The translations under genes were made by a program, and so were the position numbers. Below the pieces are notes generated by a model. The model did not search any database, was not told where the DNA came from, and saw nothing but the letters and a program-made list of their open reading frames with translations. A DNA stretch of 64,000 bases from Macrocystis pyrifera (lineage: Eukaryota > Sar > Phaeophyceae > Laminariales > Laminariaceae). Where the stretch lies: assembly GCA_031763025.1 (NCBI GenBank), contig JASSKH010000001.1, forward strand, positions 16,903,142-16,967,141, in the 5' to 3' direction. Shown piece after piece: positions 3,650 to 64,000 of the stretch; the stretch's first letter is position 1; each line of letters starts with the position of its first letter.

Positions 3650-3840
3650 CGTGCTGCGCGGCCCGCAGGGGGCGGCGTGGACAGTACGGTGCAAGTGTTG
3701 GCCCCGACGGGCATGCTCTAGGTGGTCAAAGTCGCGTGACTCAGTAAGCAACTCAGGGGATGGGCTCCCACTTCCGAAAAGCCATCCAGGGGCTTGGAAA
3801 TGTACCCGGATCTTCGTATGTTTTATTAGCTGCAAATAAA
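3650..3840 (+). repeat. Dispersed repeat, copy 1 (second copy at 5826-5995)
   Basis: About 170 bp beginning near GTACGGTGCAAG and ending near TTAGCTGCAAATA recurs at 5826-5995 with clear similarity, including the shared CGAAAAGCCATCCAGGGG block. It is non-coding and part of the satellite-rich tract that follows. Confidence 0.7.
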
Positions 3841-3924
3841 TACGGCTCGTCTATATTCCATTTTTAGGATTTAGGATTCAGGATCCGCGAAGATCCGCCG
3901 CACTTTCGAAACCGCTTCACACCC

Positions 3925-37973: not shown

Positions 37974-38088
37974 ATGATTCCGTTGGTACCGTACCGCTCG
38001 AATCTCTCCGCACTGCCCTATTTCCTACCGCTACTTGCTTTTTGTGTATGCGCACAGAGACATCTTGCTAGAAGCTACCTGACGCGTC
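37974..38088 (+). CDS. Candidate first exon: signal peptide
   Basis: It starts at an ATG and encodes a short N-terminus followed by a hydrophobic stretch ([17 protein letters not shown]), as in a secretory signal. A GTAAAT donor at 38,089 leaves one base that fits the phase of the next exon. The evidence is only the hydrophobicity, phase and position, so another upstream start is possible. Confidence 0.4.
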
Positions 38089-39135
38089 GTAAATTATGCC
38101 GCTGTATCGGCAGGAATAGACTACCATGGTATTATTTTAGAGCAGTAGCAATAGTCTAGAGTATGATAGCATACCAGTAGTGGAAAGGTGATTCGGGGAT
38201 CCCTTGCGCTCGCTTTCGTTCTTGATCCCGAACGGTTTACCGGAGACTCAATTCTCAAAAAAACGTCGTCAAGCCATATGCCGCACATCGTATTCGGAGC
38301 CCAAAATATTTTCCCGAAAAACCGTTTATCGCAAAGCCTTTTTTTCCCGGAAAATAATTTCCCATCTGACCCACGGCAGCATGCCGAAGCTCACTTCCCT
38401 TCTCTGCTCTTCCCCCACTCCCCCGCCACCCCCCCGGGCATACCCTGCCACCCTTTCCCCCACCGCATACATGCCTCGTAGCTTGCACCAACGCTTATGA
38501 CTATGGGGACCCTACCTGCCTGGAGAACTCTACTCTCTACTGGGGAACGGGGAACGACTCGGATCTGAGCTGTGCCCATTGCATGTGTGACGAGGGGTGG
38601 GGGGGCGTCGACTGCGGCCGCTGCCTGGATGTGTCCGTTTGCCCGAGCACCACCGTTGGGGGGAAGGTGAGGGTAGAGGAGGAAAAGGAGGAAAAGGAGG
38701 AGGGGGGGGGGGGGGGGGGGAGGTGTACTCGATAGGAGAGATGTACTCGATCTCATGCATGGCCGTAGTCGTATGACCATAGACCCTCGCATCCCTACAA
38801 TGCCGGGACGGAGCATGTCGGGTTTTCACCGACCAGGCAGACATTGCTTGCACCAAGCGCGAAGCGCCGTGAGGTGTCCGGCGCGTCGCATGAGGGGTGA
38901 GCTGCATCCTACTAAGAACTGCTTTGGAGGCGGACTTGCATATGGATGACAGCTTCAATGAGTTAGTTTAATTTCCGGTGTGGCCACTTCCAGAGAAGCA
39001 ATGGGAGTACTACGTAACTGCCTCTTGGGTGCATTACCTTGAACACTACGTGATACGATCAATTCCCTTGTGCAGAGTAAAGGTTCTTTACTTCGCACAA
39101 ATGATCTCACTCGACAACCAGCTGTGGGCGACCGC

Positions 39136-39169
<34 letters not shown>

Positions 39170-39272
39170 GGTACCCTGGATGTCTAGCTCACGTAGTGAG
39201 CGGCATGTTTTACAGTGTCGTTGCCAACCGACGCCAACCCAACCCCCAGAGGGGGGGAGGGGGGGGGACCCT

Positions 39273-39313
<41 letters not shown>

Positions 39314-42300
39314 ATGCGTTAGAGCTGTTCGGCGTCGTTTTCGGTGAGGTGGGTGATGGTGGTGGTGGTGGTGGTGGTGGTATTAGTGGTGGAGTCGGTG
39401 TTGGTAGTGGTAGTGGCGGTGGCGGTGGCGACATTAAGAGTGTTGGTGCCACTTTTTGTAGTGGTGGTGATGTTGGTGGTGACGCTTTCTGCTGCTGCTA
39501 AATATATTGTTTCCTCTCTTTTTGTGAGTCGAGGGGTCGACCTGACGTCTCTCTCCCCGTCTGGAACCCCCCTTCCCCCTACCCCCTACCCACCTATCGC
39601 CTCCCCCCAACCCCTTCAGACCCTGGCGCCGACGAACTGCAGCGCCGATACCCTCCTGCTCACCGAGGAAGAGGCCCGGTCCGAGGAGGGCAAGATATTC
39701 TCTTGCTCCTGCGGGGGGGGAGAGGATGGGTGGACCGATTTCCTGTGCGCCCAGCAGCCGGACACATGGATACAGTGGGCTGTTACGGGAGGGGGAACGG
39801 CAGAAGATCCGGCGGCTGTGGCCCTGAAAGGTGCGTACCCGGTGGGTGCGGTGGTGGATCCGTGGATCTTGGGAAGGGATTTCGGACGGGTAATTATAAT
39901 CATACACGAGATGAAAGATATATATACGATGTATGTTATTTTCGCACTGGATGTGCTTGGTCACATTCGGTTTTATTTTGGCGGGAGGGGGGATTCCGAT
40001 CCTGCTAAAGGTTGTGAGATGACTCTGACGGGTTATACGGCAGGCGATCGCCGTTTAATATCGCGTTTTTTAGTTCGAGCGTGGCGCGTTGCTACTATAT
40101 ATATGCATGCATGATCCCCTACAATATTAACGCCTCTTTTGATTATGGTGCAGCCGGACTTTCGAGCCGTCCGATCGGCGCACACAGTTGACGATACAGT
40201 AGTTCCACACCTCGGACAGATCAGACAGATCATGATATATCTATCTATCTACAGATAGATGATCTAGTTCCTCGCCTGGAGTTGCGAGAGGTTGTACAGG
40301 ATCTGCCTTATATAGGGTAGATAGATCCAACCCAGGAAGCAGCATGTGCGTCCTACGCTCGTCTCCCAAACCTGAAAAAAAGCCTTTTTGTTTGCTTTTC
40401 GAGATCTGTTTTCTGCACACTGGCAACCATTTTTTTTTTTGTACGCCTGGCCAGCGCCCGCCACATATCACCGGCCGTTGTGTAAACACGGTAACCCTAG
40501 GGTGGGCCGGAGTCCCTGACGAGCGCACTCCGTTCAGACTTCATGACGCAGTCGTTGGTTCTATCGATCGATGTCTGTCGAGGACTCAAAAATCTCGTCG
40601 CTTCGAACTAAACATCCGCCTGGATTGTTCTGATGCCGATGTCGGCCCAACATCGGCCCCAGAATTTGCTTGTTTTCGGGCTCTTCCAAGAATTGGGAAC
40701 TTTTCCGTCTTAAGAACCGTGCTCGTGGCCAAGGTTGTCCCGAAGTTCCGGAAAAATTCAGCAGGCGGGTATCTTTTGAAATTCAAGCTTTTTTATGGAA
40801 ACATCACTTTCCCATTGGTACGAATAGGTCTATATATATAACCCAGAAAACATGTCCCACAGTAGATCATGCAGGTTACACGGCTCCCGCCGGGCAGCTA
40901 GGTCATGCCAGCGCAGATCAGGAGTAGCGTATCTGCCGTGAAAAAATCTTAGAAGTTGGGAGTAGGAATGGATTGTCCGTCCAAGCTGCGAAACTACTAC
41001 GAATCGTGCGGCACGGCGATGGTTGTGATTTTCTTCTCGAGAGGTGCCGATCCAACCATGGTTGGCATGGCCCTGACGTGCCACGGTCGGGAGAGAGACC
41101 GTTGACATCATTTTTTTTATGTTTTGTGTGAGTTCGCGATATGCGTTAAAACAAACCGGGGACGTCCAAGGGATGTCCCCCCCCCGTTTCACGCCAACGG
41201 TCTCACGCCAACGGTTTTGCGCCGACGGTTTCGCGTCCGGTGCGGACCGCAGTATCTTTGGGGTGAGACGCTCTCTTTAATCTGGAGGCGTACAGCAGCA
41301 GCAGCAGTAGCAGCAGCAGTACCGCTGGAAGAAATCCGCATCATGTTCCGTTCGGGTGGGGTATATTATCCGCAATTCGGCCGGCTCGTGGTAGGGCTGC
41401 CGTCGCCCAACTATTACGGGGGGCCATAGTAAATAGGACCAAATATTGTTAGCAAAAATAGGGAAATATATAGGTTTTTGTGTGTACCGTAGGTCCTATT
41501 AACTATGGTCCCCCGTACTACGAAGGCCCGGTCGCACCTCTGGTGTAACGCGCCGCGTAAATAATTTGAGATAGTTTTTTCGCTCAGAAACGCTTGAGTG
41601 AACACCAATGGAGTGCGTGGTTAGTTTGGGTAACTTGTTATGGAAAATCAGCATCGTCAAAACGGGGTGGCGTCTGACTCATCGTTGGTGAGAGGGGTCG
41701 TTGGGACCGTATATAGGCGCAAGTGGCGCAGGCATCTGCAAACTTTGTGTTTAGCTCGTAAGACCTACGCCAATGGCAATGCGAAGTTCAAAAGTTTTTT
41801 TTCAAAAATATTGCTTGAAAAAAACAGCCGAAAATATCCTCGTACCGCCGCTGTGGGAAAAAAGGGAAAAAATGTTTGATTTTTCCATTCTTTTTTTTTC
41901 TAACGGCTGCAGGCGGCGCAATTTGTATTCTCTCGTTGCAAATTGTCAACACGCTGATAAAAATCAGCTCGTGCAACGATAGATGCCCGATCTCGATATA
42001 GACTCAGCCCACGCCCAACCCGTTTGGTGTCGGGCAAGCCCAACGAGTATAGATGACGGCATCGAAGATAGAAAGATCGATAAATGCTCTATAGGGGGCG
42101 AGAGCTTGCCGGCGGCGTCCTGCGGTATCCTCCCAAACCTGAAAAAAAGCCTGTTTTTTGCCATTCGAGGCGGATCGAGAAATTTTGTCTTCCGTTTGGT
42201 ACACACCAGCGGCTAATTGTTTTTTTATCGTACGCCTGGCCAGTGCCCGCCACACGTCACTGGCCATTGTGTGAAGATGGTGACCCAAGGGTGGGTCGGA

Positions 42301-45300
42301 GCCCCTAACGAGCGCACTCCATTCAGAATTCATGACGCAATCGTTGGTTTTGTCGATCGATGTCTGTCGAGGACCCGGAATCTCGCCGCTTCGAACCAAA
42401 GATCGGCCTGAGTTTTTCTCAAGCCGATCTTGGCCCAACATCGGCCCCAGATTTGCTTTTTTCGGGCTTTTCCAAAAGTTGGGGAACTTTTTTTTTTCTA
42501 AACGTGCCCATAGGAAGCGTGTTCTAAAATATTTTGGCGGGTGTCTTTGGAATTCGAACTTTTTTTTGATACTTCGCGTTCCCATTGGCATAGGTCTAAG
42601 GTGACACATCTCGTATTTTCGTACGTGTGTGTTTGGTTTCATTGATTGCTTTTTTTTTTCTCTTTCTTTTTTCTTCTATGATTGTTTTTCGTTTGTATTT
42701 TTTTTTTTTTTTTAATTCTACGATTGTTTTTTTTAAGTGCTACAAAAAGTACTACTCGTACTGCTGTAGTTACTGTTGTGTAGCATCTCTTCAAGTTGAC
42801 CTCTAAGGCTGGTTCTCTATCGTACCCCCCTCCTGCGTTTTCGCTCGGGGCTCGTCTGTTTGCACCCCCCTTCCCTCGTTGGGACGCTCGCCCCGCCCTC
42901 TGCTGCATGTACTGCAGAGTACGCTGGCATCCATGCGCGCACGGAAGAGCAATGGCCGGACCAGTACCGATACCACTACCCCAAAATTTTCGACGGCTCG
43001 GCCGGCCCCTGCAAGGTAAGCTGTTACACCGTAGAAACCCCGATTCATCGGTCCCTGCAAGGTACTGCAGAATCCCTTGAAGGTACAGTAGAAACCGCGA
43101 CTCGTCACCCCCTGCAAGGTTCCGTAGAAACCCCGACTTTCCAACCTCTGCAGGGTACGCTAAAAACCCCGGCCCATAAACCCCTTCAAGGTACAGTACA
43201 AACCCCGACTCGTCAGCCCCTGCAAGGTACCATAGAAACCAAACGCGTGCGACCCTGCAAGCTACCGTAAAAAAACCCGACTTGTCAACAGCCCGTGCGG
43301 GGTGCTGTGGAAACCCCGACCCGTCCCGTCCCGCCCAGGACAATCGCGGTGCCGGTTTTGGTGCGTTTCAGATATTACGGGGGAATATGGTACCCAGAAC
43401 CAAATATGGTATGTAAACATACGCCCTAGTCGGGGATACCTAGTTTTTGAGCCCGTCGTGCGTTCGGATTACGAGGATGGCTCTAGGCAATGGCATCCTT
43501 GGTTTCGGCCGTGTTTACGCACGGCTTGGCTCGGCCCAGGTTTTTCCCAAAGAGATGGTGCAGTGAATAATCTTTCCTTCTAAACGCTGCAACCCTGAAT
43601 ATTCCCGGGAATCACACCAGGTACCGGGCAAGCCCGACTGCCTGAGAGAGTTATCGACAAGGTGGTTGAATAAGGATCGACTCGGAAAGCTTAACCCTAA
43701 CTCCGAGCCTAGTAGGGTGAAGCCGCACTGAGGAGGCTGTGTGCACTTGCACACTATTTCGACCATTGTAAAGTCGACCCTGGGGCAAGTCTTAACTATT
43801 GCTGGGTTTTTTTTGTAATCCCAAGGACCTGTCCCCTCGGTGGTTTACGTGGTACCCTCAATATCTTCTACAGCAGCGTTGATTTCGTGGGTTCGAATCC
43901 CACGGTGGTGAGATTGCGATTTTATTTGCAAAAATAGAAAGAAACGAACTGCTGAGAGCACGTGGCGTGGGAAGGCGCGATTAGACGCGAGTCGACGAGG
44001 GAAGAAAGAGCTAAAGTCTTCTCTCGCGACAAAAATGCAAACCACGAACCGTACGTAGTGGGGAAGGGGAGGGGGAGAGCCTATGATATGTGACCCCGGA
44101 TCTGACTTGCGACTAGGAGAGAGGGAGAGAGAAAAGAAGGGCGAAGAAGATACTAAATAGGACGGGGGGAAAAACCCTCTCACCCCGACGACTGCCCGAG
44201 AATATTCTTGGACTTTTAAGCTGAGCCGAAATGAGGAGTCTTTCGTGTGCACTTATCATTTCAGTCAGTTCTTGTTGAAGTTAGGCATCATCCATTTTGT
44301 TGGAAGCTGGGGCAAATAGTGTATACATACGACTGCTTGTTTTGCCGCCGTGATTGCGTCGCGGCGACGGGGATGCACGGTAAAAACTCCACGGAATAGC
44401 CGCCCGGTGCAGCTTTCTGGTGATGGAGAGGTCGCTGGCGTTGGGTTTCCTGAAGGAGAGGCGAGGGAGGGGGGGACGGGGTGCACGGGAGCGCGACAGG
44501 TTTTGCTTCCTCAGCCCCGGCGCCGGCGCCGCCGCCGTTGTTTAGGTGCCTGGTGGTGGAGTAGATGCCGCACTGCTCCCGCCAGTTCCCGCACACACAG
44601 GGGTTGCGTCGTTGTATACCGTTTTTTTATTCGGTACCGATGAGTTAGGGTTAGGATTCGGCTAATTGATCGGGCCGACAACGGTGCGCTCCCGCCCATT
44701 GGTCAGACCGACGGTGCGGCTCCCGCTTATTGGTCGGACCAACGATACGGCTTCCTGGCATCGGTCGGACCGATGTTGCGGCCCCCGCCCATTGGTCGAA
44801 CCGATGGTGTAGCTCCCGCTCATTGGTTTGGACCGACGCTTATTGGTCGGACCAACGATACGGCTTCCTGGCATCGGTCGGACCGATGTTGCGGCCCCCG
44901 TCCATTGGTCGAACCGATGGTGTAGCTCCCGCTCATTGGTTTGGACCGACGCTTATTGGTCGGACCAACGATACGGCTTCCTGGCATCGGTCGGACCGAT
45001 GTTGCGGCCCCCGTCCATTGGTCGAACCGATGGTGTACCTCCCGCTCATTGGTTTGGACCGGCGGTGCGGCTTCCGCTGACTGGTTCGACTGACGGTGCG
45101 GCATCCGCTCATTGGTTGGACCGGTAGTGCGGATCCTTCTCATTGGTTGGGCTTACCTACATAGGATGCGGCTCCCGCTCGTTGGTTGTACCTACGGTTT
45201 GGCTCCCGCGCATTGGTCGGACCGACGGTTTCGGAATCTATCATTTTGTAAACAGAGGGGGTTAAAAACCCTGCTGTCGGTGCAAGTCGTGGAACAACCC

Positions 45301-47796
45301 CCGTCCCGTCCCGTCCCGTCCCCCGCGATGCCACCGCTGTTCCCGCTTGTCTGCCTGTCGTTTTCCCCCCCCTTTGTCCGCATGTACGTGGGTGTGTTGT
45401 CAGGTGTACCGAGATAAATGCCTCCCCGTAGAGGGTACGGACGTGGGGGACAGGGCGTGCGTCATCTTTGAGTGCGGTGACACCGAAGGACGCTGCCCTC
45501 CCGAGGAGTATCCCATGTGTGACGGGTGAGATCCATGACGATCCCCAGCGGTCGTATTGTCATCACAACGGTCGTATCCGATCAAACCCTCCAAGAGCGC
45601 CAAATATCCCACGCTGTGGCATCGTATTCCGGTATACTTTATGTGTTGATTTGTCTTCCTCATATACGGACTTTGTATACCGGGCTTGAGGCCACATTAA
45701 ACCCGTAGTAAACGCGTGATCGAAGTATCAGTACCAGGCACTATTACGGAGGACCCATAGTAAATAACACCTGCGGTACACACAAAAACCTATATATTTA
45801 CCTATTTTTACTAACAAAATTTGGTCCCGTTAACTATAGTCCTCCGTAATAGTGTGACACACAGCTTGCAAAGATGAGGGTCGACGAAACCCTCGGATCT
45901 CAGAGCTCATGTTTTTGTTTGTTTCTTCTATATATGTTGCAGAGGTTCGAGATACAGTAGTATTTTTTCTGGTCGTGTTTAGACTCTGTGTGAGAGGATG
46001 TCAACGGTCCTATTTTGTTCTGGCAGTTTGTTTCAGCCTCTGTGTAAGGTGATGCCAACGGTCGTATGTTTGTCGTGTTCTTCTGGGCTTGTCATTCGTT
46101 TCAGCCTCTGTGTGTGAGACGATGCCAACGGTCTTATCCTTTCTTGCTGGTCGTTTTTTGCTGTTTTGGCTTCTGTTCGAGACAATGCCAGCGGTCTTGT
46201 CGATAGTTTGCGGTCGCTTTGTGTTATATTACGGCGGGCCATCGTAAATTGGACCTACGGTAACCGATATATTTACCTATTTTTACTGAAAATGTTTGGC
46301 CCTATTTGCTATGGTCCCCCGTAATAGCCTCTGTGTGAGACGATGCCAACGGTCTTATCCTTTCTTGCTGGTCGTTTTTGCTTTTTTATCTCCTGTTTTG
46401 AGATGATGCGAACGGTCTTTTGTCCTTTTTTTTTTTTTGCTGGTCATTTTTGTTTTTTCAAGCCTCTCGTGTGTGTTCGTGTTTTGCGTTTTGTGTGTAC
46501 CGGTACGTGCGCGTGTGCTGTGTTGTTGTATCGTGTCTGCGTCTGGCTTGTGTCGTCTTCGGGTCGGGGGCACGAGGTCGCCCTTTTTGGTTTTCTCAAG
46601 CAACCTACTGTACCTTCCCTTGCGAATCGTGTGTCCGCGGGCAACACAGGTTCCCCGACTGCAGGTCGCCCTCCGGACAGAAGTACGAGACCCACAAATG
46701 CACAGCCGTACCCCAGGGAGGCAAGTCCATCACCATCGCCTGCCAGGAGGAGAAGGTGACCCTTAGCGAGTGTCGTATTGTCCCTTTCCCGTGTTCAGCT
46801 GTCGGTAGAGCTGCGGGTCGGCACAACTCAACCCGTTTTTAGAGCCGCAGTGTACATACCAGGTACACCTGAACATGACTCTAGTTTCGAATGTTTTGTA
46901 CCTACTTCGATCGGGAGTGCAATCCTGAAGGGGTTAACTCACCAAGTAGTTGTGTGGTCGGACTGTACGTAGTAGCGTTTAGTCGTTTCCCGGAGGTGGC
47001 GACTATCCGACTTGTTGGGTTTCCATTTTTGTAGGAAGGATATAGCTAAATGCGGGATGTATTTCTGTTTTTTTTTTTTTCGGGGAGCGGCCCCCTCGGC
47101 CAGGGAGGGGGCTGATTCGGCTGGCTTTCGCTCGCCTGGATTACGTCGGAAATTCGACTGGCCGTTAACTGGCTTCGCTATTAATAGCCGATTTACCGAC
47201 TAAAAGTCAGTTGATGAGCTGACGGCATGCGCCAAATTACCGATGGTCACTAGTCGTGGAGTCCTGCCGACTCGTAGCTGTAGCTATCGGATAGCTTTCG
47301 CGCACGGTGTTGTTTATTTTGCCCTAGGGTGCGCCGGCGCGTGTGGGCGTTGCCACGCGGAGGCTTTTGTCTTCCGTCCGTCTCTGGCAGTAATAGTTTG
47401 CCGGTGGTGTGTGTGTGTGTGTGTTTCTTTTTTCCACGTAGCCGGTTTTCTCAAGAATGAGCGATTCGGCGGTAGATACATATTTTAGTATTTCTAGGCT
47501 CACCGTTGTGTGGCACGCGCGCAGCAGAGTCGAGAGACAGACGGCCCTCGGTACGTCATGCACGCTTGAGGAGCGAGCGGTGCTACACTGCGGTAACGCT
47601 CCCTTCCGCTCGGCTCGCTGGGGTGTAAAACTAAACCGCTCTTGCAGAAGGTGACTTGTTCTGCATACCGTGTTCGGTTCGTCTCCCGACTTGCCAACCA
47701 TTGTCACTTGGTCACGCCATTTCTGCGAACACCCCTGGCTCTCACAGTAGAGTAGACTTTTTTTGTTGCCTCTCTCCCAACCTCTATATGAGGCGC

Positions 47797-47835
<39 letters not shown>

Positions 47836-47847
47836 CTCGATCTGCCC

Positions 47848-47882
<35 letters not shown>

Positions 47883-49286: not shown

Positions 49287-49320
<34 letters not shown>

Positions 49321-54395: not shown

Positions 54396-54444
<49 letters not shown>

Positions 54445-55887: not shown

Positions 55888-55921
<34 letters not shown>

Positions 55922-56304
55922 CCTGGGCCCGAAGCTTACGCGCACCCCCTCCCGACCCCAACCGAACATATCGTCCGCGACCCTCCGCACCCTTGTCTTC
56001 CAGATTCGGCGTCCTATTTTTCCTCCTCCTGTACCTCTCCCTGCTGTCCCTGACGTCGCTCCCTGTGTGGAGGGAAGACCGCCGCCTTTTTCTGACAGAG
56101 TCGATGGGGGGAGCGTACGGGCACCTCCCCTACTTTGCGTCGGTAGCCCTGGCGGATATCTTGCTCGTCAGGGTGTTACCTCCCCTGGCGTTCGCCGTTA
56201 TCGGGTATCCCCTGATAGGACTCAATTCGTCGCCGGACAACCAGAGCTGTCTCCTCTGGTTCGCGGGCATCCTGGTGAGAGCTCCAGGGAAGCATGTTTT
56301 TTGT

Positions 56305-56338
<34 letters not shown>

Positions 56339-59300
56339 CGGGGGCGGGGGCGTTTGTATTTGTTTCCACGGGTGTAATTTTGTGGAGTATCTACTCTGGG
56401 GAATACCCGGGTACACACTCGAGCGTGGTCATGTGTCAGGTCAAACCTCGTGGGTCGGGTCGGGTCGGGTCAGGGTGAACCTGGGCCGACCCATGAAAGT
56501 TTAAAAACCTCCGGACCCAAATCGACCCGACCCAACCCGACCCGACCCGTGTCATTTTGAAGACCGTCTGAACCCGACCAACGGGTCGCGTCATGGCCCG
56601 TGAAGAGCCCTGAAAAGTGTGCAGGTGTTGGCATGACTCAGATGCAAGCTAGCGCTACAGCGCAGGGCCATCGCGAGTTCTTCGACACCGGCAGAGTAGA
56701 ACACGCTATTGATGGCACCGTCGCAAGCTACGGTAGTGATCTAAGATTCAAGTCGAAACACACAAGAGTACCGACGCAAAAGCTACAGTGGTGATCACGG
56801 GGCGAGATAACCTGGAGGGTTCTTGTCATGTATAGCCGTCTCACACCCGGTGCTTGTGCGCCTCCCGCTCGCGCCCCAACCCCGACCCCCGGTTCCCCCT
56901 CCTCGCTGCGCCTGCCCAGGTTCTGGCGAACGTGACGGTGGCGCTGGCAGCGATGGGCGTCGGAGCACTAGGCCTTCCACTAGACCTGTCGAACCTGGTA
57001 GGGGGTCTGATGGTGCTCCTCCTCGCAGCATTCGGAAGGTTTCTACTCAATGGCACGCGCATTCCGTTCGGTGAGAGACGGAGAGGCAGACCTGCTGAGT
57101 CGAAACGAAGTGGTCGGAAGCAAAATCAACGATCAAGCAGCTAGTTCATTGAAGCGCGGCATTCGCTTCACGAGACAGCAGCGCGTTCCCCCCCCCTCTC
57201 TCTTTCTACATACAAGTATATATAAACGGAGTTGAAATGGAACGTTGAACATGATGACAGAAAACAAAAAAAAAAAAACAATGAAACGGGGTTTCCTTGC
57301 TTTTGTGGAGGCGCAGCGCGGTAGGAGTCCCGACCTCCCCGACACACGCGGCGTGGCGTGACTCTCTCCCTTCTCTTTTTCCCCTACCCCCTTTTTTTTT
57401 TCCCGTTCCTTTGGCTGTCTCGACCACACACGCATTTTGGTTTTATTTGTTTTCCAACGCCTGGCGTGGTGGTGGTGGTGGTGGTGGTGTGGTGGTGGTG
57501 CAGCCTGGCGTTGGTTGAGCTCCGTGACCCCTCTCGGACACGCTTTCGAGGCGCTTCTGGTCAACGAGTTCAGCGACGCCGACGGGACCAAGCCCTACCG
57601 GATCGAAGGAAGCGTGAGTCCCGTCGCCGTTTTTCCCCCCTGAAGTGCCACTATTACGGGGGACCTAGAGTAAAGAGGACCTACGCTACACACAAAAACC
57701 TATCTATTTACCTATTTTTACTGACAATATTTGGTCCTATTTACTACGGTTCCCCCGTAAATGTAGTTGTTGTAAATAGTTTCTCCGGTAGGGTAGTTTT
57801 TGTCTGACGCCGGTGTCTGTTTGTGGTGTTTGTTTTGCTCTGCGGAGAAGATGGGGAGGGCATTTCGCTTTTCCGACTTGATGTTTTTTACAACATGTTT
57901 GACGAAAGTTAGATGTAAAAAAAATCAGCTGTGAAATCGATAAACATCCTCGAAAATCATATTTGCACGCTGTGGGTGATACTACTGTAACAGCCATACT
58001 CCGATCACGCGTGCAACGGGATGTGTAATTGTGATTGCCGTCTACAAAATCTGACAGTTTTCGAACAACGTTATTTATGTAAGATGTATATGCATGCGAC
58101 TCTTGTTTTTGTTTTTTTGCTGTCATCGGCTTTTGCTGCACCTGGCTGTGCATCGCGTCAAGAACCAAGAGATCGCTCGGCAGCATGCGCAGGGCTCTCG
58201 CGTTTGGTTTCATGACGTTCTCGGCAAACGTCCACATAGCCCTCCCTGTCTATCATGTTTCTCTGTGTGGGTGAAAGTCGTCTTCATTGTCATCCAAAAG
58301 ACAGCAGCAGCACACCCAGCGCATAAAAATCCGCTTTTTAATTTTTTTTTTACTGTTTCCTCTTTCCTATTTTTTTGTCGTTCGTGCGTTGTCACAGCAC
58401 TGCTCGCCCGACTTGCCGGTGATAGAGCCGTTGGGACCGCAGATACTGGCGACCTTTTCCTTCTCCCCCGGGAGATCTACCATGCATATGGACGTGGTGG
58501 TGCTGGTGTGTCTCGCGTGCGGCCTGGCGGCGTCTAGCCTTCTCATCTTCTTCTTCGCCACGAGGTAAAAGCGAATTCGGGAACAAAAACAAAAAACTGG
58601 CTGGACCAGGCATCCGCAGTATAACCAATAACTGTTAAAAGAGCTGTTGAAGTCCAATAACTGTTAAAGAGCCGTTGGAGTCGACGAGGGAGGAAAGGGC
58701 CGAAGACTTTCCGCGAATAATCAGCAAGGCGCCAGCCGTGGTGGGGAGGAGCGAGAAGGGCCTATGATACTTCCTTACTATTTAAGGGGGACCATAGGAA
58801 ATAGGACCTACGGTACACACAAAAACGTGCAATTTTTCCCTATTTCCACTAAAAACATTTGATCCTATTTTACTGTGGCCCCCCTTAACAGGAGGGAGAG
58901 AGAAAAGAAAGCGAAGATAGTAAGTCGGATGGGAACTAAATCTGTGAATGAAAAGACGTAGCTCTCTTTGTTCTGCAATCGACCAAGTTAAAAAAAAAAG
59001 AATGACTCCAAGATGCAAAAAGTGTGGTTAGCATAAAAACTTTAGTTTTTTTTATTTGCCATGTTTTTTTTTTGCCACCAGCCGGAGGATAATGGCGATA
59101 AAAATGCCCCCAATTAACTTTGTTTTGTATAGTATTCTGCTGAAATTCGTGCACTCGGTTTTTACGTCTTGTAGCGCGCTGCGGTCGTAGATTCGAGTCA
59201 CGAGCGGGGTGAGACAAATGCAAAGAGTTTGGTTCAGGGTTTCATCCTTAGATGGTCATTTTGTGCTTTTCATGGGACATGCACGGGAGCAACCCTGCTG

Positions 59301-62300
59301 GCCGTTTTTATCATTCTGGTGAGAAAAGCGCTATGTTCCCACGATAGAGCGGTAAAGGTCGGATAGAACTTCAGCGCCTAGCCAGGTTTTACTGAAAACT
59401 GCATCCACGCTTCGGGAACAAATAATTTTACACCTCGGTGACAGATCATCTACAGGTCATCTACAGGTCATGGTCCAGATCTTTCAGGGCTGATACAGTA
59501 GATTCCTGATCTGTATGGTCTGTATGATCTAGCTCATGTTGCCGGGTAGGACCCGTATAATCTGCATGATCTAGCGCGTGTTTCCTGGGTTGGATGATCT
59601 GTACTACACAGATCCTGCACAACCTCTCACATAGGCAGGTGAAAAATTAGATTATCTACCTGTAGATAGATAGATCATGATCTGTCTGATCTGTCTGATC
59701 TGTCCGAGGTATGAAAAAGTTTCCTGGACGTAGAGTTGACTCCTTTAGAGCTGCACCCATGTTTCTGGGACAAAATATGTATACCTGGTACCTGGAATTA
59801 GACCTGATTTCCTTTAGAACTGTACTCGCGTTTGGTGGTAAAAACTACTTGAAGTTAAGAGTACGAACGGTTTTTTTTAGGGGAGTAAAAAGGTTACTTT
59901 TATGTAGGTCCAACAAACTTCCACGTCCAATTATTGCCGTGTGTCGATTTTGGCTCCGTTGGTTGTTGAACGCGAAAAAGGCCAAGACCCCGAGGTTGAC
60001 GCGACGAGACCCCCGAAACACCACCACCACCACCACTACCAGTAAACACCTAGATCGCCCTGTCTGCCCCCCCCCCCCTCCCTCCCCCCTCACCGGTCCC
60101 CGCTTGCTCCCGCGCTTCAGGACGAAACCGCTCGTGGTTAACGGCGAGCCCTCCGGAATGAGGGTGGCCCCCAGGAACATTCGCGGAAGATCGACGGCGA
60201 CGACACCCTTGAGGGCGAACCCGTCGGCGGTTGCCGAAGGACGGTCCGGCGAGCGATCGTCCAAGTACCCCGTCAGGCGAGCTGCGCCAGTCCCCAACGC
60301 TGTCCGGAACGACAGCAGCAACAACAACAACAACAACAACTCGGAACATTCTCCAGATGTTTCCGCGCAACGCCGAAGATCGGTCCGAAGAACGGATCGA
60401 AGAACGGTCCGGAATCAGAACGGTGGCGATGGAGCCGTCCGCCGAACCGTCCATTGGAACGACGTTGAACTCGAGGCGTCGGGGGATGGTGCCAACGGGG
60501 GAAGCAGCAGCGGTGGCGGTAGCGGTGGCCCGTCGCGTATCCTTGGTGCTACGAACGAGCCTGTTGTCAGAAGGGGACGTTTGTCTCGCGGCGGGGTTAG
60601 TCGCAGCCCGAGCATAGGGGACGAGGCCTCGCCGACACGACCCCCGCTCCTCCTATCGTGGGAAGCGCTGCGGTACTCGGTCGCCTTGCCACGAGCAGGT
60701 CGCTGGATCAACGGCAGCGGCGGTGGCGACGGCAGCGGCAGCAGCAGCAGCGGGGAGGCGACGAACGATGATACCGCGCGGAACAGCGCCACCGAAACCG
60801 GCTCGAAAGGTCAGCTCCTGATCTTGGATGACGTGTCTGGTTTCGCCGGGGCGAAACGAGGTAGAGGCCCTCGCGACTCCAACTCCGAGGAAGCCGGCCA
60901 CCCGTCCGTATCGACGGCAGGCGCGGTCGAGGGTAACACGGAGCTCGAGGAGGGTGGACAAGAAGGGTGGGCGGGGAGCGTGACGGCGATCATGGGCCCG
61001 TCTGGAGCTGGGAAGACCTCCTTGCTTAACGCCCTCGCTGGTCGGCTGCAAGTGGTTTCCGGTACCGGCGGCGGCGGGTTCGGGCTTACCGGGTCTGTGC
61101 GACTCGACGGAGAAACCGTGGGAGCCGAGCAGATCCGGCGAGTGTCCGCATACGTCACCCAGGAGGACGTCCTCCCTGAGACGTTGACGTGCTATGAGCA
61201 CTTGATGTTCCACGCGCACCTACGACTGCCAAAGGGGACGCCCCTGTCGCGGCGTCAATGCAGAGTTTATGGAGGTAGGCCGGGGTGGGGGCGGGGACCG
61301 GTGTGGTGTGTCTGTTTCCCAGAGAGACTACCTCTGGGGGAGCAGGGGGGACCGGGGGGCCCGTGGGGTCCGTGGGGGGGGGCACGCGCACCTTGCTGGT
61401 CTGAGCAGCAAACCGAACCCTCTATCCTGCTACGTACTGCTAGCCTAGCAGATCCCTACCAGTCTATGATCTAGCTACTATCGGTTCAGATAGATAGATC
61501 CCTGGTGTACATGTTCTTGACGATCTGCAGTAGATCAGGTTTTTCCGGGTAGGATCTGTGTGGCGCGTCTCTCGTGCACCTATTCCATGTTAGCTTACTT
61601 TCCGGGCGGGATCTGTGCTTGGTGGCCCTTGCGCAAACATGTCATGACGGAAAATGTAGGGTCTAGATGTTTTTGATGATCTAGGCCTTGATCTCTGCGT
61701 CCGGTGCGTGAAACCTTCGGCGCGGTGGTTTTGTGTTCCCATCGCGTTTTCTCGCAGGTTCTGCAACACCTCGGCCTCAGCGAGGTCTGGGACTCGCGCA
61801 TTGGCGGCGGCCTAACGCGGGGGGTGTCGGGCGGAGAGAAGCGGAGGCTGTCGATCGCCACGGAGATTCTCACGCGCCCCGCCCTTCTGTTCCTGGACGA
61901 ACCAACCACGGGATTGGGTAAGGCAATACAGTGGTACAGTGGTTTGCACCCATTTCTTGGGACCACTTGCCGCGTGGCAAGCCCAAAAACGTGGTCCTTT
62001 ATCTTTAATAATGTGGTACTAGTACTAGTTTTTCACTCCCAAAAAAATGATCCTATCCTGGTTGTAAGTGTGTTTTTTTTCTCTCGTGACAATAAGCCGA
62101 TTTACCTGGTCTCGTCTCTGCTACGCACGGCTTCAAACGGATGGTGTGAAAAACGGCTGTACCGTACAAGTACAGGAGGTTGTCTTGTGTCCGCGGAGTA
62201 GATCGTGGCGATCCGTTTTTGGTGATAACGATAATAACAACAACAACAACAACAACAACAAAAACAACTGAACCTCTTTGTGGTGGAAAACATTACGTCA

Positions 62301-64000
62301 GGCGCGGATGTAAAAGTCAACTACATACAGTGCAAGCGTGTTTTGTGCCGTCAAGGACTCGTCTTGTTGTTTTGAGTTTCACGCTTGTACCCCAGCCCCG
62401 CGCCCCTGCCTAGCTAGGATGCAGAGTGCAGCTCACTCTTCATGCGGCTCGCCCAACGCCTCACGGCGCGTCGCGCTTGGTGCAAGCAATGTCCGCCTGG
62501 TCGGTGAAAACCCGACGTGCTCCGTCCCGGCATTGTAGGGATGCGAGGGTCTATGGTCATACGACTGCGGCCATGCATGGTAATGAGTACACCTCCCCCT
62601 CCAGTCCAAGAACGGTGCCCCCGTCTCAAAAGGGATGCGTGGTCAATGGTGTGATGACTAAGGCAAGCAACAAATGTGTACACCCCCCCCCCTCCCCCCC
62701 CCCCCGCCCGCCCCCCCCACCCCACCCCACCCCCCGCTGTTTTGCGCTTACAAGCACATTCTCTCTTACACACGCACACACACACGCGAAACACTCATAC
62801 GCAACCCAAAACGATGCCGTGCCATGCTGCACGAAAACCCACGTCGCAGACTCGTCGACGGCTCTGCGCGTGATGAAACTGGTCTCCCGGGTAGCCTCCC
62901 GCGGCACGACGGTCCTGTGCAGCGTCCACCAGCCCCGCCCGGAGGTGGTCAGGCTGCTAGACAAGGTCATCCTCCTTTCCAGGGGGGGGGCGGTCGCGTT
63001 TTCCGGCCCTCCCGGCCACGCCGAGGCCTACTTCGCCTCGATCGGTCGCCCTTTCCTGCTTCTCCCGGGGGAAAGTTCCGGCGATGGCGCGGGCGGTGTC
63101 AACCCGACCGACTCGATGTTGGACGCCCTGGGAGAGACGGAAGCTTCGGCCGACCGAGGTGGGGGGGGGAGGCGTGTGCGGTGTGGAGGAGGGGAGGGGA
63201 GAGGGAAACGCCTCGAGCGGTGACTTGGTGGTGATGCCGCGGGAACTTCTCGTGGAGCAGGTGAGAAGGGCGAGGGGGGGTGGCGGTGAGAAGGTGTTCG
63301 ACGGGGGGAGAAGGTGGGAAGGGAGGGAGCGGGGGGGGGGGGGGGGGGGGGGGGAGGCTCGAGGCGTGTTTTCGCGTGTATATCGCGTTGACCAATTCGA
63401 GACTCGCTTGGTTTGTGTACCGCCGCGCGTCATTAAGTGAGGAGGGTAAGGACCGGTCGGGTATTACTATGGGTACCCAGGTCGCCCGTACATTTTTTCT
63501 CACAGAGTGGTCCGTACCTTGCAGCCGCCGGCCTCCTTTTCTGTGGAGGTAGCAAACGAGGGGTGCTACAAAGTAGGCGGTGACAGGGTTGGGGTTTCAT
63601 AGAGAGGGGCTTGCCATGGAGGTAGGGGACGGGTACTATGTACCAGGGTCGCTTTTTTGTTCCCGTGTTTTCTGTGGAACAGTGGGAAGAGAGCCCCGGA
63701 CGTGCCAAATGGGTGGCGTGTGGGGTAAGGAGTGCGGTGGAGCGCATCTGTCGGGTCGTTGCGCGAAGAAAGAGTGTCAGCTCGGCGGAGGTTGAACCCG
63801 AAAGAATATCGCGCCGGCAGGCTGGCTATTTTATACCCGGCAAAAAAGAGCTCTTGCAACTATTCCCGCCCGTTTGACGCCCCTTTCGTTCCCTCCTTCA
63901 AGCTGTTTTGAGCCCCCCGCCAAACCGCGGCGTTTAGCTCAGTGTTGAATATCGTATACCTGTAAAGTTTCGAAGGTATGGAAGTATCGCAGGCGTTCCC
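37974..64000 (+). CDS. Full-size ABCG transporter with extracellular EGF/Cys-rich head (partial at right edge)
   Basis: The exons that make up this gene code for about 1,870 residues within the window. Proposed exons are 37,974-38,088 (tentative), 38,482-38,666, 39,620-39,889, 42,920-43,015, 45,404-45,525, 46,650-46,755, 48,017-48,106, 49,188-49,253, 50,997-52,454, 54,074-54,609, 54,789-54,940, 56,004-56,274, 56,920-57,070, 57,504-57,613, 58,398-58,564, 60,121-61,274, 61,758-61,917 and 62,850 to about 63,260. All have GT/AG borders and their phases agree at 16 of 17 junctions. Order: signal peptide, Cys-rich head, one TM helix, NBD1, TMD1, linker, NBD2. The White/PDR-type ABCG family exports lipids or small molecules by ATP hydrolysis; the substrate is not deducible. 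The extracellular head recalls plant ABCG24/28-type half-transporters. Frame changes near 51,385-51,480, 61,240-61,274 and 63,160 need checking. Confidence 0.8.
38482..38666 (+). CDS. Extracellular exon with EGF-like motif
   Basis: The frame reads an acidic N-glycosylatable segment ([14 protein letters not shown]), then [18 protein letters not shown], which has the C-x-C-x4-W-x-G-x2-C core of an EGF-like domain. It ends VGGK at a GTGAGG donor. The acceptor is ...GCCTCGTAG, following a C-rich tract. The exon has no in-frame ATG start, so it is easily missed by simple frame searches. Confidence 0.7.
38698..38945. repeat. Dispersed repeat with poly-G at its left end, copy 1
   Basis: A G-run (38,701-38,720) is followed by GTGTACTCGAT, CATGCATGGCCGTAGTCGTA, CCTACAATGCCGGGACGGAG and GGTTTTCACCGACCAGGC. 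Relatives in reverse orientation lie at 55,684-55,920 and 62,415-62,713, where the equivalent end is poly-C. Located in an intron of the ABCG gene. Confidence 0.7.
39139..39330. repeat. Intronic poly-A (30 bp) and poly-G (about 40 bp) tracts
   Basis: An uninterrupted A-run at 39,138-39,168 and G-runs at 39,250-39,312, followed by GGT repeats to about 39,430. Lys- and Gly-rich frames here are artefacts. Lengths of such runs are unreliable in most sequencing methods. Confidence 0.85.
39620..39889 (+). CDS. Extracellular exon, cysteine-containing
   Basis: Preceded by an excellent pyrimidine tract ending CCCCTTCAG, it starts in phase 0 with [20 protein letters not shown]. It contains [17 protein letters not shown] and ends [11 protein letters not shown] at a GTAATT donor. 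No known domain is recognised. Acidic and Cys-bearing composition fits an extracellular region. Confidence 0.65.
39900..40359. other. Intron sequence, nothing recognised
   Basis: AT-rich with a few GATAGAT motifs near 40,235-40,260. No exon candidate. Confidence 0.4.
40360..40860 (+). repeat. Dispersed repeat of about 500 bp, copy 1 (copy 2 at 42,130-42,600)
   Basis: Shares with 42,130-42,600 the order TCCCAAACCTGAAAAAAAGC, TACGCCTGGCCAG, TGGGTCGGAG/TGGGCCGGAG, GAGCGCACTCC.TTCAGA, CGATCGATGTCTGTCGAGGA and CCCAACATCGGCCCCAGA. Both copies are in the same orientation and in the same intron. Confidence 0.85.
41412..41520. mobile_element. MITE, ATTACGGGGG family
   Basis: TATTACGGGGGGCCATAGTA at the left and TATGGTCCCCCGTACTA at the right bound about 109 bp, with the family's GGAAATATATAGGTTTTT middle. 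It lies between the two copies of the 500 bp intronic repeat. Confidence 0.85.
42130..42600 (+). repeat. Dispersed repeat of about 500 bp, copy 2
   Basis: Direct copy of 40,360-40,860 with small indels in homopolymer runs. Confidence 0.85.
42920..43015 (+). CDS. Extracellular exon
   Basis: Encodes [20 protein letters not shown] and [12 protein letters not shown], then a strong GTAAGC donor. An acceptor at ...TGCAGAG gives phase 0 continuity with the preceding exon; a start two bases earlier is possible if an exon is missing upstream. No known domain. Confidence 0.65.
43060..43275 (+). repeat. 36 bp minisatellite built on a splice-donor-like sequence
   Basis: CTGCAAGGTAC-type donors recur with GT at 43,083, 43,119, 43,155, 43,191 and 43,227, exactly 36 bp apart. 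A further one lies at 43,062, 21 bp before the series, and the true donor is at 43,016. The frame from the exon stays open through the array as a 12-residue repeat (PLQGTVETPT-like). Confidence 0.8.
43836..44200 (+). repeat. SINE-like repeat with tRNA-like head
   Basis: TGGTTTACGTGG and GGTTCGAATCC lie about 30 bp apart (43,850-43,900), with a five-base-pair T-arm-like hairpin. They are followed by a purine-rich body (GAGTCGACGAGGGAAGAAAG, GGGAGAGAGAAAAGAAG) that recurs at 58,665-58,950. No acceptor stem can be formed, so it is not a working tRNA. Confidence 0.5.
44660..45235 (+). repeat. Minisatellite with higher-order repeat (unit about 29 bp, block about 119 bp)
   Basis: A basic unit like CCCGCTCATTGGTCGGACCG repeats throughout. 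A larger block starting GCTTATTGGTCGGACCAACG recurs at about 44,727, 44,832 and 44,951. Long open frames on both strands are repeat translations. It sits in an intron. Confidence 0.85.
45404..45525 (+). CDS. Extracellular cysteine-rich exon
   Basis: Encodes [30 protein letters not shown] and [10 protein letters not shown]. Acceptor ...GTTGTCAG, donor GTGAGA; it starts in phase 0 and ends in phase 2, which fits the next exon exactly. Five cysteines in 40 residues suggest disulfides. Confidence 0.75.
45742..45851. mobile_element. MITE, ATTACGGGGG family
   Basis: TATTACGGAGGACCCATAGT at the left and ATAGTCCTCCGTAATA at the right. The shared substitution (GGAGG/CCTCC) in both ends shows the two inverted repeats still match each other. 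Confidence 0.85.
46010..46420 (+). repeat. Tandem repeat of about 60 bp units, split by a MITE (46,227-46,326)
   Basis: Units contain CCTCTGTGTGAGA, GATGCCAACGGTCTT and TTGCTGGTCGTTTTT. A MITE (TATTACGGCGGGCC...GGTCCCCCGTAATA) interrupts the array, which resumes at once with CCTCTGTGTGAGACG. Confidence 0.85.
46650..46755 (+). CDS. Extracellular cysteine-rich exon
   Basis: Encodes [26 protein letters not shown] and ITIACQEEK, ending at a GTGACC donor. Phase 2 start joins the preceding ...MCDG without a break. No family is recognised beyond Cys-rich character. Confidence 0.7.
47797..47882. repeat. Two intronic poly-C tracts
   Basis: C-runs of about 34 (47,800-47,834) and 32 (47,850-47,881) separated by GCTCGATCTGCCCCTG. 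The Pro- and Gly-rich open frames here are artefacts. Confidence 0.9.
48017..48106 (+). CDS. Extracellular cysteine-rich exon
   Basis: Encodes [18 protein letters not shown] and [12 protein letters not shown] in phase 0, flanked by acceptor ...GGATTTAG and donor GTAGGA. NGS is a possible N-glycosylation site. Confidence 0.75.
48280..48600 (+). repeat. Degenerate intronic tandem repeat
   Basis: Repeated phrases of the type CTCTGGAGGCTGTCAGTGCATCGG and GGTTGACCT with irregular spacing of about 36-45 bp. Confidence 0.55.
49188..49253 (+). CDS. Short exon before the first membrane helix
   Basis: Encodes [13 protein letters not shown] and IVSWSIRTQ in phase 0 with acceptor ...CCAAAACAG. The donor GTGGAG is weak, so the right boundary is less certain, but it gives a phase-0 junction into the helix exon. 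Confidence 0.5.
49289..49473. mobile_element. Poly-C tract followed by a MITE (49,370-49,473)
   Basis: A C-run of about 31 (49,289-49,319) is followed by CCG repeats and then the MITE from TTACGGGGGACCATA to TATGGTCCCCCGTAATA. Confidence 0.8.
50215..50415 (+). repeat. Intronic minisatellite, unit about 27 bp
   Basis: Repeats of CACGATCGGATTGGTCAA with AACCTTC spacers, about seven units. Confidence 0.8.
50865..50957 (+). repeat. Poly-C-associated repeat, short copy
   Basis: CATGCCCCGTCTCGAAAGGG, GATGCGTGG and GCAAGCAACAAACGAGTACG lead into a C-rich tract, as at 62,615-62,713. Confidence 0.6.
50997..52454 (+). CDS. ABCG exon: transmembrane helix, linker and NBD1
   Basis: It starts directly after CTTCTCCAG with a hydrophobic helix ([18 protein letters not shown]), then a Ser/acid-rich cytoplasmic linker. 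The NBD starts [11 protein letters not shown], with Walker A GPSGAGKS (51,965-51,988), Q-loop [20 protein letters not shown], signature LSGGERRR (52,361-52,384) and Walker [12 protein letters not shown]. The donor GTGAGA splits the D-loop Asp codon. The linker reads in frame 3 up to at least 51,380 and the NBD in frame 2 from at least 51,385, with no credible intron between. One base seems to be missing from a G-run, or there is a true frameshift. Confidence 0.8.
52740..53045. repeat. GATCTG-rich intronic repeat and MITE (52,936-53,045)
   Basis: CAGATAGATAGATTC, GATCTGCATGATCTA and TGGGTTGGAT recur at 59,440-59,705 and 61,480-61,690. The MITE (TATTACGGACGACCATAG...TATGGCCCCCCGTAATA) is inserted into this repeat, which continues as GGTAGATAGATAGATCGTGA. 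Confidence 0.7.
53480..53710. repeat. Degenerate repeat with GAATTCCAA/AATCGG motifs
   Basis: TCGGAATTCCAA-type phrases recur at about 30-50 bp spacing within the intron, followed by a C-run at 53,715. Confidence 0.55.
54074..54609 (+). CDS. ABCG exon: NBD1 C-terminal part and linker
   Basis: The first codon completes the D-loop ([11 protein letters not shown]). It contains the switch-His motif [29 protein letters not shown] and [12 protein letters not shown], all diagnostic of ABCG ATPases. A 15-residue polyalanine from (GCT)n at 54,400-54,444 lies in the linker and may vary in length. The exon ends VEETEL at a GTAGGT donor. Confidence 0.85.
54789..54940 (+). CDS. ABCG exon: start of TMD1
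   Basis: Encodes [18 protein letters not shown], the amphipathic connector, then the first helix ([17 protein letters not shown]). Acceptor TTTTTCGTGCAG, donor GTGAGA, phase 2. Confidence 0.85.
55084..55110. repeat. Intronic poly-G tract
   Basis: A G-run of about 22. Confidence 0.9.
55684..55920 (-). repeat. Poly-C-associated dispersed repeat, copy 2
   Basis: Three C-runs (55,690, 55,754 and 55,889) enclose GGTCGGTGAAAACCCGACGT, GCTCCGTCCCGGCATTGTAG and CATACGACTACGCATGACAT, the reverse complement of the 38,698-38,945 repeat. Confidence 0.75.
56004..56274 (+). CDS. ABCG exon: TMD1 middle helices
   Basis: Encodes [16 protein letters not shown], then the conserved re-entrant region [31 protein letters not shown] and further hydrophobic segments to LLWFAGIL. 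This is the canonical ABC2-membrane pattern of ABCG proteins. Phases 2 and 0 fit both neighbours. Confidence 0.9.
56306..56612. repeat. Poly-G tract and GGGTC/hAT-like fragment
   Basis: A G-run of about 33 (56,306-56,338). At 56,430-56,612, GGGTC/GACCC pentamers in opposite orientations end in GTGAAGAGCCCTG, the right terminus of the element at 13,552-14,472. Confidence 0.7.
56920..57070 (+). CDS. ABCG exon: TMD1 late helices
   Basis: Encodes [18 protein letters not shown] and [20 protein letters not shown], ending TRIPF at a GTGAGA donor. NGT is a possible glycosylation site in the last extracellular loop. Confidence 0.85.
57463..57503 (+). repeat. GGT repeat immediately before a splice acceptor
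   Basis: (GTG)n runs up to the AG of the acceptor at 57,502-57,503. The string CCTGGCGT occurs on both sides of the repeat (57,460 and 57,504), suggesting local duplication. Confidence 0.8.
57504..57613 (+). CDS. ABCG exon: last extracellular loop of TMD1
   Basis: Continues [23 protein letters not shown] and [17 protein letters not shown], the typical W-x4-P-x-x-x-x-x-E-A-L-x-x-N-E-F block of ABCG proteins. Strong GTGAGT donor. Phase 1 start is supported by the motif. Confidence 0.85.
57652..57761. mobile_element. MITE, ATTACGGGGG family
   Basis: TATTACGGGGGACCTAGAGT at the left; TACGGTTCCCCCGTAA at the right; the family's TACCTATTTTTACTGACAAT middle. Lies 38 bp after a splice donor. Confidence 0.85.
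58398..58564 (+). CDS. ABCG exon: final helix of TMD1
   Basis: Encodes [20 protein letters not shown] and, after a short segment, the helix [20 protein letters not shown] followed by FATR. It ends in phase 2 at a GTAAAA donor, with no stop in the exon. The first in-frame stop lies across the donor, which could be mistaken for the end of the gene. Confidence 0.8.
58665..58950. repeat. Second copy of SINE-like body, interrupted by a MITE (58,779-58,890)
   Basis: GAGTCGACGAGGGAGGAAAG...CCTATGATAC and GGAGGGAGAGAGAAAAGAAA match 43,990-44,150. Between the halves sits a MITE with altered ends (TTTAAGGGGGACCATAG...TGTGGCCCCCCTTAA). Confidence 0.75.
59440..59705. repeat. GATCTG-rich repeat
   Basis: Many ATGATCTG/GATCTGT/ATAGATAG motifs, related to 52,740-52,930 and 61,480-61,690. 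Intronic. Confidence 0.7.
60121..61274 (+). CDS. ABCG exon: inter-domain linker and first half of NBD2
   Basis: The acceptor follows a long C-rich tract (CCCGCGCTTCAG), and the phase matches the last TMD1 exon. The linker is Ser/Asn/Arg-rich and disordered. The NBD starts [14 protein letters not shown], then [10 protein letters not shown], Walker A GPSGAGKT (60,995-61,018) and Q-loop [20 protein letters not shown]. After [10 protein letters not shown] the frame appears to shift: another frame gives NAEFME before the GTAGGC donor and joins the next exon well, whereas the running frame does not fit it. Confidence 0.8.
61758..61917 (+). CDS. ABCG exon: NBD2 signature and Walker B
   Basis: Encodes [18 protein letters not shown], signature VSGGEKRR (61,824-61,847) and Walker [12 protein letters not shown], ending in phase 1 at GTAAGG. 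Both catalytic elements look intact. Confidence 0.9.
62415..62713 (-). repeat. Poly-C-associated dispersed repeat, copy 3
   Basis: Reverse complement of 38,740-38,945, including GGTCGGTGAAAACCCGACGT and CCGGCATTGTAGGGATGCGA, continuing with GCAAGCAACAAATGTGTACA into a C-rich run. Confidence 0.75.
62850..63260 (+). CDS. ABCG exon: NBD2 C-terminal part (last exon seen)
   Basis: Completes the D-loop ([11 protein letters not shown]). It contains [29 protein letters not shown] and YFASIGRPF. After about 63,160, at a run of nine Gs, the running frame becomes Gly/Arg-rich and stops. Another frame continues with [14 protein letters not shown] to a GTGAGA donor at 63,261. The right end is therefore uncertain. 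Confidence 0.75.
63261..64000. other. Presumed intron and window end, no exon recognised
   Basis: A G-run (63,330-63,353) is followed by ordinary sequence. A frame with several Cys at 63,640-63,795 has no membrane-helix character, so the expected TMD2 exons must lie beyond the window. Confidence 0.45.

Follow-up and report, generated by a model that had tools for sequence, protein, structure and literature searches.

A 64,000-nucleotide stretch of the genome of the giant kelp Macrocystis pyrifera (positions 16,903,142-16,967,141 of contig JASSKH010000001.1, here C189), hereafter the window, probably carries one full-size, head-bearing transporter gene of the ABCG family of ATP-binding cassette (ABC) proteins, which would extend from position 37,974 to position 69,584 in window coordinates and run past the window end. 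Its predicted product would comprise, in this order, a signal peptide, an extracellular cysteine-rich head with an epidermal growth factor (EGF)-like element, a membrane segment, a first nucleotide-binding domain (NBD1), a first transmembrane domain (TMD1), a cytosolic linker, NBD2 and TMD2, and by the sum of the exon lengths it would measure approximately 2,030-2,110 residues. Two NBD-TMD units follow one another in the DNA and the junction between them is conserved in a paralogous locus; a single polypeptide is predicted from the sequence.

Both halves belong to the ABCG type. The protein-family search that a first-pass annotation of the window had proposed as a check returned PF00005 and PF01061 in each of them, with the NBD ahead of the TMD, the reverse topology described for ABCG proteins (PMC2848647), and the sequence is of the ABCG type. 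Each TMD also has the six membrane segments of the subfamily: hydropathy analysis of the spliced sequences gave six hydrophobic regions each in TMD1 and TMD2, counting as one those regions (two in TMD1 and one in TMD2) that the script split into overlapping windows. TMD2 is an end-to-end PF01061 domain (E 5.3e-33). Both NBDs of the window copy read complete, with GPSGAGK, QED, SGGE, LLFLDEP and HQPR, which we take to be the Walker A, Q-loop, signature, Walker B and H-loop motifs, respectively, and since these motifs are complete both ATP sites may work. PDR-type full-size ABCG proteins (yeast Pdr5 type, CDR1) share the NBD-TMD-NBD-TMD order, but a PDR-type transporter with an added head is a very improbable explanation of the kelp gene: among solved structures, human ABCG2 is the best match to NBD1-TMD1 (E 8.1e-60, against 6.6e-55 for the PDR type) and the nearest to TMD2 (1.6e-16, against 1.3e-6 or weaker for PDR proteins), PDR-specific Pfam domains are absent among the hits, and both kelp ATP sites look complete. 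Degenerate ATP sites occur in fungal PDR proteins.

The connection between the two halves is the critical point. The last TMD1 exon (58,398-58,564) contains the sixth membrane segment and has a homologous exon in the paralogue with a conserved ACGAG/GT end (the slash marking the cut). The first-pass annotation had placed this exon correctly and had given it the phase-2 end that follows if the cut is made there, but its statement that the exon lacks a stop does not hold, as an in-frame TAA lies at 58,566-58,568, directly after the cut, and the frame reads ..FFFATR and then stops. The junction intron (58,565-60,120 on the forward strand; 1,556 nt, the paralogous counterpart measuring 1,031 nt between C189:16,531,779 and C189:16,532,811) starts with GTAA, so that AG/GTAA is at once a donor and the end of a codon followed by a stop, and unspliced RNA would meet the TAA. 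Termination there leaves 68 residues past the aligned 'NEF' region of ABCG2 (725/793), compared with 67 in ABCG2 itself (588/655); with the TAA, TMD1 would thus end where a half-transporter should. In addition, an in-frame ATG is present at 60,158, 12 codons into the NBD2 exon, contrary to the earlier claim that no new start separates the exons. The no-stop, no-start argument originally put forward for a fusion is therefore weak, the sequence having a stop as well as an ATG. With a TAA adjoining the donor, and with TMD1 and ABCG2 ending at corresponding points, the window taken alone would be read more simply as two half-transporter genes in tandem: an Adp1-like headed half ending ..LLIFFFATR and a stop at 58,568, followed by a half without a head whose start would be either ATG 60,158 or an unseen 5' exon, the two products forming a heterodimer. 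The Adp1 clade itself, as described in PMC9426558, has one NBD and one TMD, which also fits this arrangement.

The junction splice sites of the window copy were scored with a matrix derived from the remaining donors and acceptors in the first half of this gene, the sites used for comparison being left out of the matrix. The donor at 58,564 reaches 4.84 bits, a value below which three of 12 left-out donors fall and which 237 of 4,327 GT dinucleotides of the forward strand attain. The acceptor ahead of 60,121, CGCTTGCTCCCGCGCTTCAG/G, which the first-pass annotation had called excellent, reaches 6.69 bits (nine of 13 acceptors are lower, and 95 of 3,699 AG dinucleotides reach this value), and its phase agrees with the phase-2 end of TMD1. 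Codon-usage scores were too flat to show whether the coding sequence begins at 60,121.

The paralogue changes the assessment. It was found by whole-genome searches that covered 537,376,219 bases in 223 contigs and scored only the best candidates, so that all counts are lower bounds. A search with the NBD2 exon led to a relative on C189, 0.4 Mb upstream of the window copy, with the same head-NBD1-TMD1-NBD2-TMD2 order and a protein that ends ..YGLLRRA before a TGA. The counterpart of head exon 1 lies at C189:16,498,392-16,498,571 (52% identity, E 3e-22), and NBD1 is 77% identical between the copies over 75 codons. With TMD2 as the query, at least four places were found, namely two TMD2 and the two TMD1 ahead of them; every TMD2 located in this way (two of two among the best candidates) sits behind a TMD1 of the same type. 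PF01061 gave at least 17 exon matches in the genome, from which it follows that other ABC2-type genes exist. One scan of viral contigs with TMD1 found no relative.

The paralogous TMD1 exon ends ..FYIFTR at ACGAG/GTGGGG, a donor at the homologous position after the same Thr-Arg and without a stop; left unspliced, the frame runs for about 15 codons into unrelated sequence before a stop. This donor is good (6.06 bits, reached by 3.4% of 3,416 GT dinucleotides). The NBD2 acceptor, CACACGGCAG/GACGAGCCCC, is homologous to CGCGCTTCAG/GACGAAACCG of the window copy and has an identical phase, and the spliced junctions would read ..FFFATR-TKPLVV.. in the window copy and ..FYIFTR-TSPLKV.. in the paralogue. 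The stretches of 44 and 38 residues after the acceptor align with a score of 35, compared with a shuffle mean of 22, and 1.7% of 1,000 shuffles reach that score; the 40 in-frame codons ahead of the acceptor score 24, which 19% of 1,000 shuffles reach. By this comparison, the similarity of the two copies starts at the acceptor, upstream of ATG 60,158, and in the segment upstream of this ATG five of 12 residues are identical. No Met was found in the paralogue NBD2 exon ahead of the first conserved strand, 'LLSWE', when the frames before and after its C-run were read. A hidden first exon was also sought in both junction introns, among 60 candidates in the window copy and 20 in the paralogue that run from an ATG to a phase-2 donor, and no pair exceeded 50 shuffles.

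As the paralogue keeps the junction, the latter is more than a chance arrangement, and because this copy combines the absence of a stop after TMD1 and of a Met ahead of NBD2 with a matching phase, the two-gene verdict suggested by the window is overturned. Two adjacent genes are now unlikely, as they would also have to accommodate a donor, acceptor and phase conserved despite near-saturated synonymous divergence, similarity reaching upstream of ATG 60,158 to the acceptor, and junction introns without a conserved hidden first exon. The splice from 58,564 to 60,121 would accordingly join the halves of one gene, and the proposal that a head-bearing half was fused to a second NBD-TMD unit, advanced in the first-pass annotation, draws its support from the paralogue: its domain order, donor, acceptor and phase, and its lack of a stop and of an early Met.

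A single gene might also yield both forms, a reading compatible with the full-size gene that we regard as possible but doubtful. Splicing would give the full-size protein, and retention of the junction intron a headed half-transporter terminated by the stop inside the GTAA donor. The AGG-TAA / AG/GTAA overlap of the window copy suits this idea, and retention in the paralogue would add the 15 or so residues mentioned above before a stop. Such an overlap is cheap, since any codon ending in G followed by TAA produces GTAA, and it is not kept in the paralogue.

Several observations weigh against a full-size, head-bearing gene. The evidence comes from two loci in one genome, which is few. Of the head exons, just the first two have a counterpart found in the paralogue: head exons 3-6 and the membrane exon were sought in the fetched paralogue stretches and were not found, the best E value being 0.022 while controls went down to 0.02. 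A gap of 100 N at C189:16,525,863-16,525,962 (864-963 of fetched stretch L017) occupies the place expected for the Walker A part of the paralogue NBD1, and this part did not turn up in the rest of that stretch. The paralogue acceptor is weak, with -0.29 bits, a value reached by 35% of 2,502 AG dinucleotides, which also favours two genes. The shared ACG-AGG-T could arise by chance, as AGG is used in both copies at five of 48 aligned Arg pairs and a T would follow it by chance about one time in four. The EGF label of the head is weak. Finally, the reading frame is broken in both copies. The NBD2 half of the window copy has two net single-base frame changes, one at approximately 61,236-61,250 and one in a nine-G run at 63,160, and the paralogue has three breaks, in TMD1 exon 2, in a 14-C run and in a seven-G run within the signature motif.

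These breaks, two in the window copy and three in the paralogue, could mean that both loci are decaying copies. Recent decay is possible, but that both loci are decaying with real breaks is rather improbable, and the breaks are likely to be assembly errors. Three of the five sit in homopolymer runs (G9, C14 and G7), and according to the assembly paper the giant kelp genome was assembled with Canu from PacBio reads and polished with Racon; a term search of the main text of this paper turned up neither Pilon nor Arrow nor HiFi (PMC10498591). Decay is also at odds with the constraint across both halves. By the Nei-Gojobori method, the window copy and the paralogue differ in the first half (426 codons) with a synonymous divergence (dS) of 1.44 and a nonsynonymous to synonymous ratio (dN/dS) of 0.17, and in the second half (482 codons) with a dS of 1.29 and a dN/dS of 0.24. 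The counts exclude the Walker A part of NBD1, which is a gap in the paralogue; the alignment of TMD1 exon 2 includes codons from the broken paralogue frame, and its identity is consequently understated; TMD1 exon 4 is saturated at synonymous sites and is given no ratio of its own. The last TMD2 exon alone has a dN/dS of 0.66. With synonymous change so close to saturation, recent copying alone does not account for the kept junction and, judged from these ratios, selection has acted on both halves during most of the period after the duplication.

An origin of the two units by recent tandem duplication of a single half was considered and rejected, as TMD1 and TMD2 are only 37% identical over 167 positions, whereas identity from copy to copy is higher (49-78% for the TMD1 exons and 71% for the main TMD2 exon).

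The first half of the gene (all features on the forward strand) can be read as a probable first exon, six head exons, NBD1 and TMD1, with consistent joining phases from 37,974 to 58,564 and one exception. The putative first exon (37,974-38,043) would supply the start codon and a signal-peptide-like stretch, and its phase-1 end matches the next exon. Head exon 1 (38,482-38,666) carries the EGF-like C-x-C-x2-G-x2-G-x2-C pattern and has the 52% identical paralogous exon described above; head exon 2 (39,620-39,830), which contains cysteines, has a counterpart with 58% identity (E 2.6e-25). The remaining head exons are placed by phase and splice sites only: exon 3 (42,918-43,015), the cysteine-rich exon 4 (45,404-45,525), which has a poor acceptor, and the cysteine-containing exons 5 (46,650-46,755) and 6 (48,017-48,106). 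The cysteine-rich character that the first-pass annotation had assigned to the head is borne out, cysteines being present in all six exons, but its EGF element corresponds only to sub-threshold Pfam matches in head exon 1 (E 0.14-0.2 in the window copy and 0.029-0.92 in the paralogue). C-x-C-x2-G-W-x-G-x2-C is present in this exon in both copies; Pfam found nothing in the whole head of the window copy, with no EGF match at E 1, and the matches of the head in the PDB were at chance level (best E 0.054).

Other sequences accompany the head exons. About 200 nt beyond the paralogue head exon 1 there is a second, degraded-looking match to this exon (C189:16,498,769-16,498,936, or 3,770-3,937 of fetched stretch L021; 35% identity, E 5e-6), with one internal stop. 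The first head intron of the window copy holds a young repeat of approximately 420 nt (38,696-39,114) that is 96% identical to a stretch near the paralogue (186-605 of fetched stretch L015) and recurs at lower identity.

The next exon (50,997-52,454) would encode the membrane segment that follows the head, then a linker that is long and of low complexity, and the start of NBD1 from Walker A to Walker B, identified through PF00005. It is here that the phases require an additional intron, as a frame change occurs inside the exon; 51,178-51,467 (290 nt) or 51,406-51,467 (62 nt) would serve. The end of NBD1, with the D-loop and H-loop, and a poly-Ala linker occupy 54,074-54,609, 78% identical to the paralogue over 93 codons. 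A GCT repeat at about 54,395-54,450 encodes the poly-Ala of this NBD1-TMD1 linker in the window copy, and the close similarity to the paralogue ends ahead of it. TMD1 exons 1-4 (54,789-54,940, 56,004-56,274, 56,920-57,070 and 57,504-57,613) were assigned by PF01061 and aligned to the paralogue.

In the second half, 60,121-61,274 encodes the linker and the first part of NBD2 with the Walker A and Q-loop, and includes the first of the frame changes given above. The middle of NBD2, with the signature and Walker B (61,758-61,917), is defined by a Pfam match, splice sites and a paralogue counterpart, and the D-loop, H-loop and following linker lie at 62,850-63,260, an exon with a weak acceptor (-3.79 bits) that includes the G-run at 63,160. 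The second NBD-TMD unit recognized by the first-pass annotation is therefore represented in the window by its NBD2, its TMD2 lying outside, at 65,729-69,584. In extended window coordinates the TMD2 exons are 65,729-65,980, 67,960-68,441 and 69,389-69,584 on the forward strand, the middle one of which ends with NEF; in the last one ..FVFLKRSR is followed by a TGA stop, the gene ending at 69,584 (C189:16,972,725).

Short elements with inverted repeats, approximately 110 nt long and resembling miniature inverted-repeat transposable elements (..GGGGGACCATAGTAAATAGGACC / GGTCCTATTTACTATGGTCCCCC..) occur in many copies in both ABCG loci, among them those at 41,404-41,520, 57,654-57,760 and 58,782-58,888; one copy lies inside the junction intron. 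Elsewhere in the window, a 444-codon open frame on the reverse strand (28,917-30,248) matches the MSS51 C-terminal domain (E 1.4e-12) and is probably a separate gene, a retroelement integrase remnant at 10,688-11,296 gives matches just below the cut-off to the rve core (E 3.6e-7) and Integrase_H2C2 (E 2e-5), and residues 55-72 of an open frame at 2,177-2,911 match a GATA zinc finger (E 2e-6).

Plant ABCG24 and ABCG28 are half-size ABCG proteins with a cysteine-rich N-terminal head; set beside them by description, the kelp gene shares such a head but not the half size. Half-size human ABCG2, the closest solved structure for each kelp half, and plant ABCG16/25 are single dimerizing units and headless. 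The first-pass annotation had turned to the ABCG24/28 group for comparison, and fungal Adp1 is judged to be the better one: the Adp1 clade is described as half-size, its members having a single NBD, a single TMD and usually an EGF domain (PMC2848647, PMC9426558). Yeast Adp1 (YCR011C), a member of ABC-G group VII with a soluble domain containing EGF repeats and a single NBD, had a function called enigmatic in the 2010 paper (PMC2848647). By description, the kelp gene resembles this clade in combining an ABCG unit with a large extra domain, with the reservation that the EGF match of its head is sub-threshold, and differs in having two NBDs in its best gene model; a single NBD would result only from two separate genes. 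The yeast YOL075C group (ABC-G group VI) contains both half-size and full-size members, but no head figures in the description of the group (PMC2848647). The earlier view that full-size and head-bearing ABCG proteins are separate architectures agrees with their treatment in these sources (PMC2848647, PMC9426558), and no full-size ABCG protein with such a head was found among the matches listed in the open-licence PMC literature on ABC/ABCG proteins.

If the halves are translated as one chain, a single protein would supply the complete pair of units that half-size ABCG proteins assemble by dimerizing. NBD1 and NBD2 would close on two ATP molecules, and their closure would drive export along a TMD1-TMD2 path. 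As a signal-peptide-like stretch precedes the head and a membrane segment follows it, the head should be outside, where a single copy would stand next to the exit on the outer surface; there it would most likely bind or hand over the substrate, or anchor the pump to the cell wall.

As to origin, a possible but doubtful reading is that brown algae have a separate full-size ABCG class, which arose when an Adp1-like headed half acquired the adjacent ABCG half through splicing, that the old stop became a donor in the window copy (AGG TAA to AG/GTAA), and that splicing chooses between the half-size and full-size pump. A stop that overlaps a donor can mislead gene models in either direction. A head-bearing full-size form in two old kelp paralogues would mean that full-size ABCG transporters also arose by a second route, outside the PDR type, and the presence of one head per transporter would give a system for asking what such heads do.
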